Part shown: positions 1-4,896 of the stretch, in pieces | How positions within the stretch are numbered: the stretch's first letter is position 1 | Layout of the letters: each line of letters begins with the position of its first letter | Origin: an uncultured Erysipelotrichaceae bacterium | GTDB lineage: Bacteria > Bacillota_I > Bacilli_A > Erysipelotrichales > Erysipelotrichaceae | Direction of reading: 5' to 3' | DNA length: 17,157 nucleotides | Assembly: GCA_900319505.1 (NCBI GenBank) | Contig: ONOV01000201.1 | Location: forward strand, 1 to 17,157 | The notes under the pieces: generated by a model | Database searches by the model: none | The model's input: the letters and a program-made list of their open reading frames with translations, nothing else | Told to the model about the DNA's origin: nothing | Position numbers and translations under genes: made by a program

Positions 1-1582
1 TAAACGCATCAATGATCATCTGTACCGTTATGCGTGAGCGATAGCGGTTGATGGATGGTGTACCGATCACAGCTGAAGGATTGTCATTGCCGGCAACAGA
101 CTGATTGAAGATCACCCCGTCAAACCCGCCGCATACATTGGCATAGTGATAGCGCAGTACTTTTGTATATTCTTTTTTATCCAGTACCACAGGATTACGT
201 ATGGCAAATTCAGGCTGCTGGATATCTTTGGGGACAGGTCTGATGGCGGACAGTCCCATGACATTGTCGATGGTCATTTCATCCGCATCAATCGCAATGG
301 CATTCTGTACCGGCTCTTCATAGACAAAGCCTGTTTCCTGCATCTTTCTGTCGATATGCGTACAGAAGGAGGCATAGTTTTCTTTCTTCAGGGAAAGACC
401 GGCTGCCTTGGCATGTCCGCCAAAGGCTTCCAGTTCATCAAAATCAGAGAAGAAGTCATAGATATTGAAACCGTCAACGGATCTGGCACTGCCGGTTAAC
501 AGATCATCTTTCTCAGCCAGTACCAGGGTCGGTTTATGACAGGCTTCAGCGATCTTTCCTGCGGCCAGTCCGGCAAGTCCCTGTTTGAAAGAAGGATCAT
601 AGATGACCTGAAAGCTCTTCTCATCCATGAGGGCAGATGCTTTTTCAATCATGGTACGGGAATGGTATTTGCGGGATTCATTTTCATGATTGATCTGTTC
701 CGCCATGAAACGGATCTGAGCAGGATTGTCTGAAAGCAGATATGTCACAATCCGGTTGGGATTGGCATCATCATCCATGCGTGATACGGCATTGAGCTTG
801 GGAACAATCTGGAAGGCAACGGATACTTCATCAAAGTCATTTGTATTGTTCAGTAAAGCACAGAGAGATCTCGGTCTGCCTTCATGAAGATGATCCAGGC
901 CATAGATGACAATCCTGCGTGTTTCACCCCATAACGGCATGACATCGCCGATCGCTGCCGCCATGGCAAGGGAAGTCAGATCCGGATCATCCCCAATGAG
1001 ATTTCGGGAAATCTCAAGGGCTACCCCTGCCCCGGATAAGGTCCGGTATGTTTCTTCCATATAATCCGGATGGACAACGATATCAGCTTCAATTTCTTCT
1101 TCAATGACATGGTGGTCTGTGACAATGACATCCATGCCGAGCTCTTCTGCCCGTTTCAATGCATCATGTGCCTTGACACCATTATCGACTGTAATGATCA
1201 GGGAATAGCCCCGCTCATGTACCATTTCAACGGTATGGACGGAAAGCCCATAGCCTTCCTTCAATCGATCCGGGATGTAGTAGCCTGTCTGCAGGCCGAA
1301 TCCGTCCAGGGTCTTTTTCATAATCGCTGTTGCACAGATACCGTCCGCATCATAATCGCCGCCGATGAATACCTTTTCCCCGTTTTCTTTTGCCTTTGCG
1401 ATACGGGCACATGCCTGTTTCACACAGGGCGCATGGCTTGTTGTCAATGGACCGGGATTGAGCAGTTCTTCGATTTTTTCTTCCGATAAATCTGAAGCAG
1501 CGAGCACTCTGGCCGCAAGGGAAGTCAGATGGTATTTTTCCTGCAGCTCTGTTCCATCAGACTGAATGATATTCCATCTCAT
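1..1582 (-). CDS. recJ: Single-stranded-DNA-specific exonuclease RecJ (3' end cut by window)
   Basis: RecJ degrades single-stranded DNA 5' to 3' in recombination and mismatch or base-excision repair, using metal ions held by DHH-family motifs. The frame is open for 527 codons from the ATG at 1582 to the window edge, so only the extreme C-terminus is missing. Visible motifs are GGDYDADG (residues 74-81), TVDNG (131-135), the name-giving DHH (156-158), SGAGV (183-187), AIGDVMPL (210-217) and the DHHA1 motif GGHAKAAG (388-395). The last residues resemble the OB-fold of longer RecJ proteins. The start codon overlaps the murD stop as ATGA, so translation is probably coupled to murD. The usual W-H/N-x-G-V segment of DHHA1 reads FKQGLAG here, a mild divergence. 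It is the last visible gene of the comN-secDF-murL-murD transcription unit. The identification is firm. Confidence 0.96.
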   Translation of the reverse strand, partial: MRWNIIQSDGTELQEKYHLTSLAARVLAASDLSEEKIEELLNPGPLTTSHAPCVKQACARIAKAKENGEKVFIGGDYDADGICATAIMKKTLDGFGLQTGYYIPDRLKEGYGLSVHTVEMVHERGYSLIITVDNGVKAHDALKRAEELGMDVIVTDHHVIEEEIEADIVVHPDYMEETYRTLSGAGVALEISRNLIGDDPDLTSLAMAAAIGDVMPLWGETRRIVIYGLDHLHEGRPRSLCALLNNTNDFDEVSVAFQIVPKLNAVSRMDDDANPNRIVTYLLSDNPAQIRFMAEQINHENESRKYHSRTMIEKASALMDEKSFQVIYDPSFKQGLAGLAAGKIAEACHKPTLVLAEKDDLLTGSARSVDGFNIYDFFSDFDELEAFGGHAKAAGLSLKKENYASFCTHIDRKMQETGFVYEEPVQNAIAIDADEMTIDNVMGLSAIRPVPKDIQQPEFAIRNPVVLDKKEYTKVLRYHYANVCGGFDGVIFNQSVAGNDNPSAVIGTPSINRYRSRITVQMIIDAF

Positions 1583-2886
1583 TCCTCTGACACCAGACGT
1601 CTGAACACGTCCCCTCTCTCTTCAAAGTTTTTAAAATGATCATAGGAGGATGCGGCCGGTGACAGTAACAGAATGTGATGGGGCTGTACCAGACTCATGC
1701 CCAGTTTTACTGCTTCTTTGAGATTTTCCACTTCATAGAGGCCTTCTCTGTCTCTATTGGAAGCTTTCATCTCTTCATGAATCCGACGGCCGGTGCCATA
1801 CATGAAGACAGTTTTGATGTTCTGATGGTCATACAGGTACTGTTCCAGCTCATCATACGCAATGCCTCTGTCCATGCCGCCGATCAGAATGACATCCACA
1901 TTGTTCAAAGCTTCCATGGCCTGGATGGATGCCTGGCCGATTGTAGAGATGGAGTCATTGATGCAGCGGATGCCATGGAATTCACCAAGGTCTTCCAGAC
2001 GATGGTGCAGCGGTTCAAAGACACGGGCAGCGTGTCTGACCTGTTCATCACTGATGCCATAGAGACTTGCAATATAGTATGCCACGGCAAGATTGCGGTA
2101 GTTATGTTCACCAATCAATGCACAGTCATCAATCTCCAGTTCATGGCCGGGAATCACCAGGGTATGATCATGGGCATCAATGTCGCTGCCGATAAATACA
2201 GGTTCATTGACCCATCTGTCTTTGAACTGCATGAGATCTTTATGCAGGATTGTAACATCGCCCTTCTTCTGATGAGTGAAGATATTGGCCTTGGCATCGG
2301 CATAAGCTTCAAAGGTACCATAATGGTCCAGATGTTCTTCAAACAGATTCAGATAGACGGCAATATGCGGGGAATACGGGCAGAACTCCAGCTGATGGCA
2401 GCTCATTTCAAAAGCAGCCAGATACCCTTCTTCCATCTTCGCAATAGCTTCAAAGCACGGAATGCCGATATTTCCGACAAGTACTGTATTGTACTTTTCC
2501 TTCAACAGGGCATAGACCAGGGATGTTGTGGTGGACTTTCCCTTTGTACCGGTAATGCCGATGGTATGATCCGCGTAGTGCTTGAGAAACAGCTGGGTCT
2601 GGCCGCTGAGCTTATCACGGGCAATGGCCTGCTTTACCACAATGCCCGGGGATTTCAGGATCAGATCAAATGCATTGAAATCCACCGTATCATCATAGAC
2701 GGCAGTAACATGAGGATTTTCTGCTTCAATCTGTTTCAGATCCGTCTTTCTTCCTTCCGCAACCGTAATGTTCTGCTGTGGCAGAAGCGAACGGATGAAC
2801 TGCAGCGAAGATTTTCCCTCTTTGCCGAAACCCCAGATGATTACCTTTTTATTTTCAAAATCATTTTTCCAGTCTTTGAGACTCAT
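1579..2886 (-). CDS. murD: UDP-N-acetylmuramoyl-L-alanine--glutamate ligase, possibly the L-glutamate-specific MurD2 type
   Basis: A cytoplasmic Mur ligase of 435 aa that adds glutamate to UDP-MurNAc-L-Ala using ATP. Motifs in order: N-terminal Rossmann segment VIIWGFGKEGKSS (15-27), P-loop GTKGKST (113-119), EMSCHQLE (160-167), HLDHYG (185-190), the lysine likely to be carbamylated K199, HRLEDLG (295-301), NDSISTI (310-316), GGMDRG (336-341) and SPAASSYDHF (409-418). Length and order fit MurD. Two motifs differ from textbook MurD: the P-loop has K for N, and the usual NDSKATN reads NDSISTI, losing the lysine near the glutamate site (K319 in E. coli, from memory). The gene starts at an ATG overlapping the stop of a murL-like gene (ATGA), with a strong GGAGG 7 nt upstream. 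This coupling and the altered motifs suggest it adds L-Glu, as MurD2 does in Xanthomonas. That specificity is inference; the Mur ligase identity is firm. Confidence 0.95.
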   Translation of the reverse strand: MSLKDWKNDFENKKVIIWGFGKEGKSSLQFIRSLLPQQNITVAEGRKTDLKQIEAENPHVTAVYDDTVDFNAFDLILKSPGIVVKQAIARDKLSGQTQLFLKHYADHTIGITGTKGKSTTTSLVYALLKEKYNTVLVGNIGIPCFEAIAKMEEGYLAAFEMSCHQLEFCPYSPHIAVYLNLFEEHLDHYGTFEAYADAKANIFTHQKKGDVTILHKDLMQFKDRWVNEPVFIGSDIDAHDHTLVIPGHELEIDDCALIGEHNYRNLAVAYYIASLYGISDEQVRHAARVFEPLHHRLEDLGEFHGIRCINDSISTIGQASIQAMEALNNVDVILIGGMDRGIAYDELEQYLYDHQNIKTVFMYGTGRRIHEEMKASNRDREGLYEVENLKEAVKLGMSLVQPHHILLLSPAASSYDHFKNFEERGDVFRRLVSEE

Positions 2887-4244
2887 TGTTTTTCCTCCAG
2901 ACGCTGTTTCAGCTTCAGTGCGAATTCTTCCGGCAGAAGATTGACGGTATTGTATGCATGCCAGTCTACGCTTCTGTTTTTATAGAAGTCATAATAGCTT
3001 GTTGTACGATAGTAAGCATAAAGATACGGCAGCTGTTCTCCTGCCGCTTCATACCTTCGGATACCCATGGCAATGGCGATATTGACTTCATCTCTTGTTC
3101 CGACACATTCAAACGGCTTATCATCCACCAGGCCAGACAGCTGTTCAAACAGTTCCTTCATTTCCGGATCAGCCAGCATGCTGCGGCCGAAGATCCTGAC
3201 AACTTCTTCCTCTGAGAGATACGCTGTCATCATGATGCATACAAACAGGCACTTGGCACAATGCCCGCACCACTTTTCCTCCTTCTGGCCGACATTGCAG
3301 GAGCGGAATACGCTGTGATACTGCTTCAGATCCGCAAACAGACCGGCAATCTGCAGTTCACTCAGCGGCCGCAGGAAGGAGAAGTAATGAATGCCGTCAT
3401 TGAGATTCTTCTTCACATAGGCATTGAAGTCCTGTTCAAAGCCGAATGTCTTAGAATACTGATGGTTGACGGAGGAGCCTTTGATCGTTGATTCATTGGC
3501 ACTGGCTTCATTGGACAGACAGATATACTGCTTGTGATAGACAACGGCCGTCAGATAGGACGCAAAGGCAGCCATGGCACTGAACGGTGTATGGCCGTTG
3601 AGATAGCCCTGGCGGTTGAGCTCCAGCATGCGCTTATCCAATGTGCGGGAAGGATTGATGAGTCTGTCTCCTTCATACCCTGCCGCAATGGAAGCGTGGA
3701 TGGCACTCATGACCTTATTGATGACAAAAGCATGATTTTCTTCCTTTTCATCTTTCAAAAGATCCAGAGTGACAAAAGAATCCTTGCCGCCGCCTACCGG
3801 AATCAGATTGCCATGGAAGGAGTCTGTATAAGGCTTTCCGGTAATAGCATTTCCGGTAGATGTCAGATGCATGAATTCTTCTTCATCAATTTCAATATGG
3901 TTCTTGTAGAAGAATTCACCCAGGCCATTGTAGTACAGCTTCTTCCACCAGGCCGTATCTTCATTGTCAAGCGATCCGCATTCCACAATGGTCTCCTGGG
4001 GACAGGCAATCTTCCAATAGCTGATCAGTTCAACCATGCCTAAGGCAAAGGCAGCCTTTCTGAACAGTTCCGTATCCCCTACGGTCTTTTCATCCGGCTT
4101 TTTCAGGGTAAAGGTCGGATTGAAGGCGGACAGGCCTTCAACCTCCATGTCATAGGTGACTTTTACCTTTTCACTGTCTTCTTCAATATGGAAGGCATGG
4201 TAATAGAAATGTCTGTATGTTTCACGCAGTGTTCTGAAATCCAT
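2883..4244 (-). CDS. murL: MurL-like UDP-MurNAc-L-Ala-L-Glu epimerase
   Basis: A 453-aa protein that I recognise as the MurL family. In Xanthomonas MurL uses ATP to epimerise the terminal L-Glu of UDP-MurNAc-L-Ala-L-Glu to D-Glu, replacing glutamate racemase. Seen here: a PP-loop-type ATP motif PVGGGKDS (149-156), SNEASANES (244-252), VNHQYSK (259-265), and a cysteine cluster C316, C326, C329, C332 (W-C-G-x-C-x-K-C) that could bind metal. There is no signal peptide or membrane segment, so it is cytoplasmic. The ATG at 4244 is chosen because AGGAG lies 6 nt upstream; a TTG further upstream overlaps the preceding gene and lacks a site. The stop of the HAD gene is 1 nt before the start, and murD overlaps the end by 4 nt. 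An operon with murD is the context expected for this activity. The family assignment is from memory of its motifs, without a search. Confidence 0.8.
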   Translation of the reverse strand: MDFRTLRETYRHFYYHAFHIEEDSEKVKVTYDMEVEGLSAFNPTFTLKKPDEKTVGDTELFRKAAFALGMVELISYWKIACPQETIVECGSLDNEDTAWWKKLYYNGLGEFFYKNHIEIDEEEFMHLTSTGNAITGKPYTDSFHGNLIPVGGGKDSFVTLDLLKDEKEENHAFVINKVMSAIHASIAAGYEGDRLINPSRTLDKRMLELNRQGYLNGHTPFSAMAAFASYLTAVVYHKQYICLSNEASANESTIKGSSVNHQYSKTFGFEQDFNAYVKKNLNDGIHYFSFLRPLSELQIAGLFADLKQYHSVFRSCNVGQKEEKWCGHCAKCLFVCIMMTAYLSEEEVVRIFGRSMLADPEMKELFEQLSGLVDDKPFECVGTRDEVNIAIAMGIRRYEAAGEQLPYLYAYYRTTSYYDFYKNRSVDWHAYNTVNLLPEEFALKLKQRLEEKQ

Positions 4245-4245
4245 G

Positions 4246-4896
4246 TTATTCTCCTGTTTCAAGAAGCGGGATCACATCAAGAAGTGATTCTCCTCTATAC
4301 TCCAGCGCTTCTTTCATTTCTTCATCTGCTTCTATCATATCCTTTATCCAGCAGGAATGCATGCCGGCACGCTTTGCGGCAATGATGCCGGCCTTGGAAT
4401 CTTCCAGCACAAGGCATTCCTCTGGTTCAAACCCGAGCTTCTCTGCCGCTTTCAGAAAGACCTCCGGGTCCGGTTTGGCGTGCTTTACCATATCACCGGT
4501 CACATACACATCAATATGCATATCAAACGATGCCATGTCCACTAAGCCTTTCACATAGTCATAGTCTGAAGAAGAGCATACAGCCCGGGGCATATGATGC
4601 GCGTCCATCCATTCAATCAGTTCCTGCAGTCCCTTCTTATTGAGGCCGTCGGTCCCGAATGAGCGCCAGAAGGAAAGATCAAACCTCTCTTTCTTAAGCC
4701 GATCAAGGATACGGTAAAATCCTTTTACAGAACGCATATACGCATCTGCCTCATCATCCCTTACCCCGGTTGTATGGATGAAGAAATCTTCCGGCAGAAC
4801 AATTCCGTTTTTCTCGGCTTCTTCTTTCCAGTGTGCGATGGAAATACGCTCGGTATCAAACATCAGGCCGTCGCAGTCAAATAATACTGTTTTCAT
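4246..4896 (-). CDS. HAD-superfamily hydrolase (beta-phosphoglucomutase-like phosphatase)
   Basis: A 216-aa cytoplasmic HAD hydrolase, subfamily IA, the class that removes phosphate from small phosphometabolites or acts as phosphosugar mutase. Motif I is DCDGLMFDTE (7-16, nucleophile D7 and acid/base D9), followed by a helical cap of about 15-90. Motif II is the serine run 108-110, motif III is K141 in KPDPEVF, and motif IV is LEDSKAG (164-170) with acidic E165 and D166. All catalytic residues are present. The ATG at 4896 is preceded by GGAGG 4 nt upstream, which lies just past a terminator-like hairpin after secDF. The gene ends 1 nt before murL, so it is cotranscribed with murL and murD. 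Substrate cannot be told from the sequence; a role in sugar-phosphate or nucleotide-sugar housekeeping for wall synthesis would be a guess from context only. Confidence 0.87.
   Translation of the reverse strand: MKTVLFDCDGLMFDTERISIAHWKEEAEKNGIVLPEDFFIHTTGVRDDEADAYMRSVKGFYRILDRLKKERFDLSFWRSFGTDGLNKKGLQELIEWMDAHHMPRAVCSSSDYDYVKGLVDMASFDMHIDVYVTGDMVKHAKPDPEVFLKAAEKLGFEPEECLVLEDSKAGIIAAKRAGMHSCWIKDMIEADEEMKEALEYRGESLLDVIPLLETGE

Follow-up and report, generated by a model that had tools for sequence, protein, structure and literature searches.

The window analyzed here is a 17,157-nucleotide stretch of DNA from an uncultured Erysipelotrichaceae bacterium (assembly GCA_900319505.1, contig ONOV01000201.1). 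On its minus strand lie two overlapping genes, a homologue of murL (2883..4244; 453 amino acids from an ATG start) and a murD with MurD2-type residues (1579..2886; 435 amino acids). A first-pass annotation had read these as a pair joined by a 4-nucleotide ATGA stop/start overlap, and both open reading frames (ORFs) and the overlap (2883..2886) are confirmed from the sequence. A supply of D-glutamate (D-Glu) is essential, and the racemase MurI is the textbook route to it and a drug target. We consider it highly probable that the pair represents the MurD2/MurL route to D-Glu in an Erysipelotrichaceae member of the Bacillota, a functional-looking extension of a known pathway. Comparison supports this reading well: the lines of evidence are homology, coupling of the two genes, a natural fusion in one relative, the near mutual exclusion of MurL and MurI, the switch residues of MurD, and the predicted fold of MurL.

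Results

The 453-residue protein matched a single NCBIfam family, MurL (NF041275; 252 bits, E 8e-75), with residues 10-395 aligned to positions 7-394 of the 447 in the profile. A Pfam scan gave nothing over cut-off and listed DUF6395 alone, below its cut-off. The protein did not match the Pfam profile of the QueC family (PF06508), PADLOC gave no match, and the best match in a PDB sequence search had an E value of 0.41. The motifs from which a MurL had first been suspected are all present: the PP-loop ATP-binding motif GGGKDS (residues 151-156; minus-strand codons 3777..3794), SNEASANES, VNHQYSK, and WCGHCAKC (residues 325-332). Within VNHQYSK, the segment NHQYSK (residues 260-265; codons 3450..3467, minus strand) contains active-site candidates, and the region of H261, Y263, and K265 may have a catalytic role. 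The four-cysteine set C316-x9-C326-x2-C329-x2-C332 (codons 3249..3299, minus strand) resembles the zinc motif of QueC and may bind zinc. Each residue of GGGKDS, together with H218, H261, Y263, K265, R292, C316, W325, C326, C329, K331, and C332, is identical in all 65 MurL rows of our alignment, so the named motifs are not due to chance.

An AlphaFold model of the MurL homologue (pLDDT 93) has a QueC/QatC-type PP-loop fold, with likeness extending over 200-330 residues in VIA-align. Foldseek's own alignments of the model to QatC had a root-mean-square deviation of about 12 Å; the structural claim rests on VIA-align. QueC and QatC are zinc-binding PP-loop proteins of the PF06508 family. The MurL homologue shares with them the predicted fold and resembles them in a glycine-rich phosphate loop (GGGKDS, compared to SGGxDS in QueC) and in a four-cysteine set at nearly the same spacing as in QueC, C(x)9CxxCxxC, compared to C(x)8CxxCxxC as given in the available portion of PMC13329287. 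It differs from them in having no PF06508 match, in the x9 rather than x8 spacing, and in its substrate and reaction. Judging from the model, we place the resemblance to PF06508 at the level of the fold and do not count the protein as a family member. A QueC/QatC-type fold with a zinc-type cysteine set fits the known ATP-to-AMP chemistry of MurL, and offers a concrete, testable mechanism for an epimerase that has been described as having no known domains.

The window MurD scored 285.7 bits against the canonical MurD profile TIGR01087, exceeding its cut-off of 211.95. MurL-linked MurDs of relatives also exceed this cut-off, so the profile cannot separate the two kinds of MurD. Residues that can do so have been reported: in the accessible part of PMC8788868, Glu197 and Arg358 of Xanthomonas MurD2 occupy the positions of Asp182 and Lys348 in Escherichia coli MurD, E197D/R358K converts Xanthomonas MurD2 into a D-Glu enzyme, and K319T makes E. 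coli MurD accept L-Glu. By alignment to these positions, the window MurD carries E184 (codon 2335..2337; E. coli D182, MurD2 E197), I313 (codon 1948..1950; E. coli K319), and R340 (codon 1867..1869; E. coli K348, MurD2 R358), all on the minus strand, and so has the Glu and Arg of the published switch. Among 63 MurL-linked MurDs, position 184 is Glu in 60 and Asp in three (L009, L016, and L049), and Ile313 and Arg340 are present in every one. The 31 canonical MurDs of the family have Asp, Lys, and Lys without exception at the same three positions. Within the rows examined, then, positions 313 and 340 split the two kinds completely, and position 184 does so with three exceptions. Thirty of the canonical sequences are the best-scoring family MurDs, not a random draw, and the thirty-first is from genome G193. 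The streptococcal MurD 3lk7 carries Thr, Lys, and Arg at these positions, so Arg alone is not diagnostic of the MurD2 type. A tree of 98 MurD sequences, built quickly by maximum likelihood, divided 31 canonical from 67 MurD2-type sequences on one branch (SH-aLRT 100). Both the 63-row count and the tree leave out L036, in which a contig end cuts the gene, and L037, which has broken ORFs; L004 and L042 are apparently the same contig, leaving one duplicate among the MurD rows.

A contig scan yielded 39 MurL loci of Bacillota and Bacteroidota, distributed among Erysipelotrichaceae, Clostridia, Lachnospiraceae, and Bacteroidales; Lactimicrobium massiliense, a named strain, also carries murL. In 31 of the 39 loci, murD directly follows murL; this number includes L018 (7968-10565), a Clostridia metagenome-assembled genome (RGIG3023) in which MurL and MurD form one 865-residue ORF. 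Three Lachnospiraceae loci (L032, L033, and L034) have murD approximately 2.7 kb downstream of murL, with the MurD2-type residues kept; L037 is broken, and the other four have no murD in the examined DNA. Pairwise identities of MurL and MurD correlate at 0.91 over 63 rows, as joint transmission of the two genes would predict. Within the genus of the window, 10 of 15 sampled genomes have the pair. Of 392 sampled genomes from the phylum, 14 had a strong MurL match, namely 12 from the window family and two from another family; matches below 22 bits in G247, G353, G485, G515, and G526 were dropped as noise. The pair is not peculiar to the window genome but scattered across Clostridia and Bacteroidales, and the extension beyond the known groups that the first-pass annotation had proposed would take in Bacteroidota as well as Bacillota. 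Stop codons flagged within MurL in genus g48 and a few others were considered as recoding, and this was rejected after checking seven loci: the flagged codon was the first or second of the match, 5' of the start codon, in L051, L052, L053, L056, L059, and L061, and was the natural stop in L063.

Profiles for MurI (TIGR00067), the Asp/Glu racemase family (PF01177), and class-IV transaminases (PF01063) found no match in the assembly that contains the window, which measures 1.56 Mb and is 92% complete. These profiles matched 10, 10, and 13 of 14 control genomes, respectively. At that completeness, the genome search that the first-pass annotation had called for, covering murI/racE and D-amino acid transaminase, detected neither. 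Across 195 genomes of the family, our MurL alignment (A1) matched 32, of which 31 were kept as carriers; the remaining one, G100, scored 18.9 bits over 65 residues with two stops and was dropped as noise, and keeping it would place MurI in one of 32 carriers. MurI matched in 149 of the 195, and in 143 clearly after six weak matches (E 2.9e-11 to 8.9e-8; G141, G187, G190, G058, G117, and G137) were set aside and treated as other racemase-like proteins. A clear MurI was found in none of the 31 MurL carriers, compared to 143 of the 164 other family genomes (Fisher p 2e-22, uncorrected for shared ancestry). The carriers with no clear MurI include genomes at 98-100% completeness, and the only two with any MurI match are G141 and G187, both weak. 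Two genomes kept among the 164, G016 and G055, had no first-look candidate in any search showing their row; they were probably masked and are not taken for organisms without a wall. The genomes of the 39 MurL loci likewise gave no MurI match over cut-off, with some match in 16. MurL and MurI nearly exclude each other in these genomes. G193, a member of the window genus, has a canonical MurD and MurI with no MurL match, apparently a swap of the whole D-Glu route.

Two lineages of the window genus have lost murL cleanly. The gene is absent from an otherwise similar gene run in G031 (L101) and G075 (L124) and, separately, in G125 (L122) and G190 (L123), and these four genomes form two separate pairs in the MurD tree. 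G031 and G125 are single-contig assemblies. No MurL match, no clear MurI (a weak match in G190), and no transaminase match was found in any of the four. Their MurDs keep Glu, Ile, and Arg at the three positions and agree with all 57 columns that are conserved across the MurL-linked sequences, apart from L166M in G031 and G075 (56 of 57). Beside murD, the gene for a haloacid dehalogenase (HAD) hydrolase is split in two in G031 (L101:10139-10823), and G075 has no HAD match at the corresponding place. G125 and G190 have a protein of the Asp/Glu racemase family with two cysteine motifs, which we take to be those of Asp/Glu racemases; neither G031 nor G075 matched this family.

The gene run of the window lies entirely on the minus strand, from an mraZ/mraW end through murL and murD to recJ. 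Upstream (5') of murL on the same strand are genes for the HAD hydrolase (4246..4896; Pfam HAD_2), 1 nucleotide from murL, then secDF, a small Post_transc_reg gene, an mraY-like glycosyltransferase gene named from sequence and position, a PASTA-domain penicillin-binding protein gene, an ftsL-like gene (DivIC, 21.2 bits, below the cut-off of 28.9), mraW, and mraZ. The link to the dcw cluster that had been proposed for the pair is borne out by secDF and the mraY-like, penicillin-binding protein, ftsL-like, mraW, and mraZ genes on this strand. A recJ-like gene (2..1582) overlaps murD by 4 nucleotides, again ATGA, and reaches the window edge; its product matches Pfam DHH and TIGR00644 (350.8 bits, under the cut-off of 396.9). 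Shine-Dalgarno-like sequences precede murL (AGGAG, 4251..4255) and, within the 3' end of murL, murD (GGAGG, 2894..2898), all on the minus strand. The ORF listing also contains a longer murL frame of 459 amino acids from a TTG start at 4262. The HAD hydrolase gene tightly precedes murL in G102 (L126) as well as in the window.

Discussion

In the route that we propose, MurD would attach L-Glu first, and the attached residue would then be inverted. MurL would activate the alpha-carboxylate of this Glu with ATP, its QueC-like PP-loop domain forming an adenylate and later AMP; activation would acidify the alpha-hydrogen, such that the center could be inverted. An adenylate is the proposal made for Xanthomonas MurL in the portion of PMC8788868 available to us. 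Free D-Glu and MurI would be needless in this route. We infer L-Glu specificity, the epimerase reaction, and the order of chemical steps from the comparisons above. The earlier suggestion of ligation followed by epimerization, independent of MurI, gains support at the sequence level from the MurL match, the absence of a detectable MurI or transaminase, and the L-Glu-type residues of MurD.

Several observations weigh against this reading. The score of 252 bits lies under the curated cut-off of NF041275, 700, which defines a Xanthomonadales equivalog; the window protein falls outside that equivalog and is therefore termed a MurL homologue. In the same partial source, E. coli MurD D182E/K348R gained no L-Glu use (PMC8788868), so the Glu and Arg residues are not sufficient and are support for, not proof of, L-Glu specificity. 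The D-amino acid transaminase profile TIGR01121 matches 17 of the 31 family MurL carriers and none of the other 14, reaching 200.8, 252.7, and 244 bits in G154, G159, and G168 (cut-off 277). The remaining 14 matches are weak (30-52 bits) and lie in open frames of 352-381 amino acids, a size typical of branched-chain aminotransferases. The strongest MurI-like match among the MurL-locus genomes is 108 bits in G200 (the genome of L007), and 15 of the 38 others have weaker ones, with 73 bits in G212. Of the 149 family genomes with a MurI match, just 84 exceed the cut-off, and some family MurIs score in the range of the G200 match, so G200 may have a true MurI. Having neither MurI nor transaminase, as the window genome does, thus has exceptions among relatives in G154, G159, G168, and perhaps G200. 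A murI may also have been missed in the window genome because it is 92% complete. Finally, the four genomes described above hold a MurD2-type MurD without MurL.

Some of these points would favor a MurD that still takes D-Glu, from an undetected racemase or the environment, with MurL as an accessory. The incomplete genome, a possible outside source of D-Glu, and the four sister genomes without MurL are consistent with this explanation. We nonetheless consider it very improbable, given that a clear MurI is found in none of the 31 family carriers, some of them at 98-100% completeness, and that, in the rows examined, the two MurD kinds can be told apart at residues 313 and 340 in every case and at 184 in all but three. 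The predicted QueC/QatC-like fold raises another explanation, in which MurL resembles QueC in function too and turns the activated carboxylate to a different reaction, for example amidation of Glu to isoglutamine, with D-Glu coming from elsewhere. QueC forms an amide from an activated carboxylate, according to the available text of PMC13279940. Such an activity would leave unexplained both the carriers without a clear MurI and the L-Glu-type residues in their MurD, and the sole named family matched is the epimerase; there is little chance, in our view, that it accounts for the pair.

A mis-called MurL that belongs to another PP-loop family (QueC, LarE, or NadE) seems extremely unlikely. The fold is common to PP-loop proteins and the protein has no Pfam domain at cut-off, yet MurL is the sole NCBIfam family, matched over most of the length, PADLOC gave nothing, and the gene is syntenic with murD. 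We rejected a QueC, LarE, or NadE identity on the NCBIfam, Pfam, and PADLOC results, and the comparison with family profiles that the first-pass annotation had called for returned no better match to another PP-loop family.

The MurD2/MurL route favored here resembles that of Xanthomonas oryzae (XOO_1320/XOO_1319), also known from Micromonospora and Salinispora, in that a MurL homologue is coupled to a MurD whose switch positions carry Glu and Arg and in that neither MurI nor a D-amino acid transaminase was found in the genome. It differs from the X. oryzae-type pathway in its occurrence in Bacillota and Bacteroidota, in the placement of murL before murD in a dcw-linked run, in a MurL score far below the equivalog level, and in the fusion found in one relative; the window pair is known from sequence comparison. 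The canonical system of the same family, as in G193, differs in using free D-Glu from a racemase and a MurD with Asp, Lys, and Lys. The pair had been put forward as an extension of the pathway to a Gram-positive bacterium. Relative to the pathway papers named below, the extension to Bacillota is new, but Gram-positives as such are not, since MurD2/MurL of the Gram-positive actinobacteria Micromonospora and Salinispora were already tested in vitro, as the accessible part of PMC8788868 describes. Among the matches listed, the available portions of the pathway papers (PMC8788868 and PMC5808125) name Gammaproteobacteria, Alphaproteobacteria, and actinobacteria. They also mention homologues of low similarity from cyanobacteria, from a fungus, and from an amoeba. 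Relative to these portions, the novelty lies in Bacillota and Bacteroidota.

The lineages without murL are the most novel lead of this analysis. They may import D-Glu, use a different racemase or epimerase, have a MurL diverged past detection, or build an L-Glu stem peptide. We suggest, only tentatively, that they have a replacement epimerase of a new kind or peptidoglycan with L-Glu at position 2. If true, L-Glu at this position would be an exception to a rule that bacterial walls obey almost universally. These species make the strictness of the D-Glu need directly testable. Many of the MurL-pair records come from animal guts, according to their titles. If the route operates as proposed, MurI inhibitors would spare such Bacillota and Bacteroidales, and MurD2/MurL inhibitors would hit them. 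Labelling such genomes as D-Glu auxotrophs for want of murI would then be wrong.
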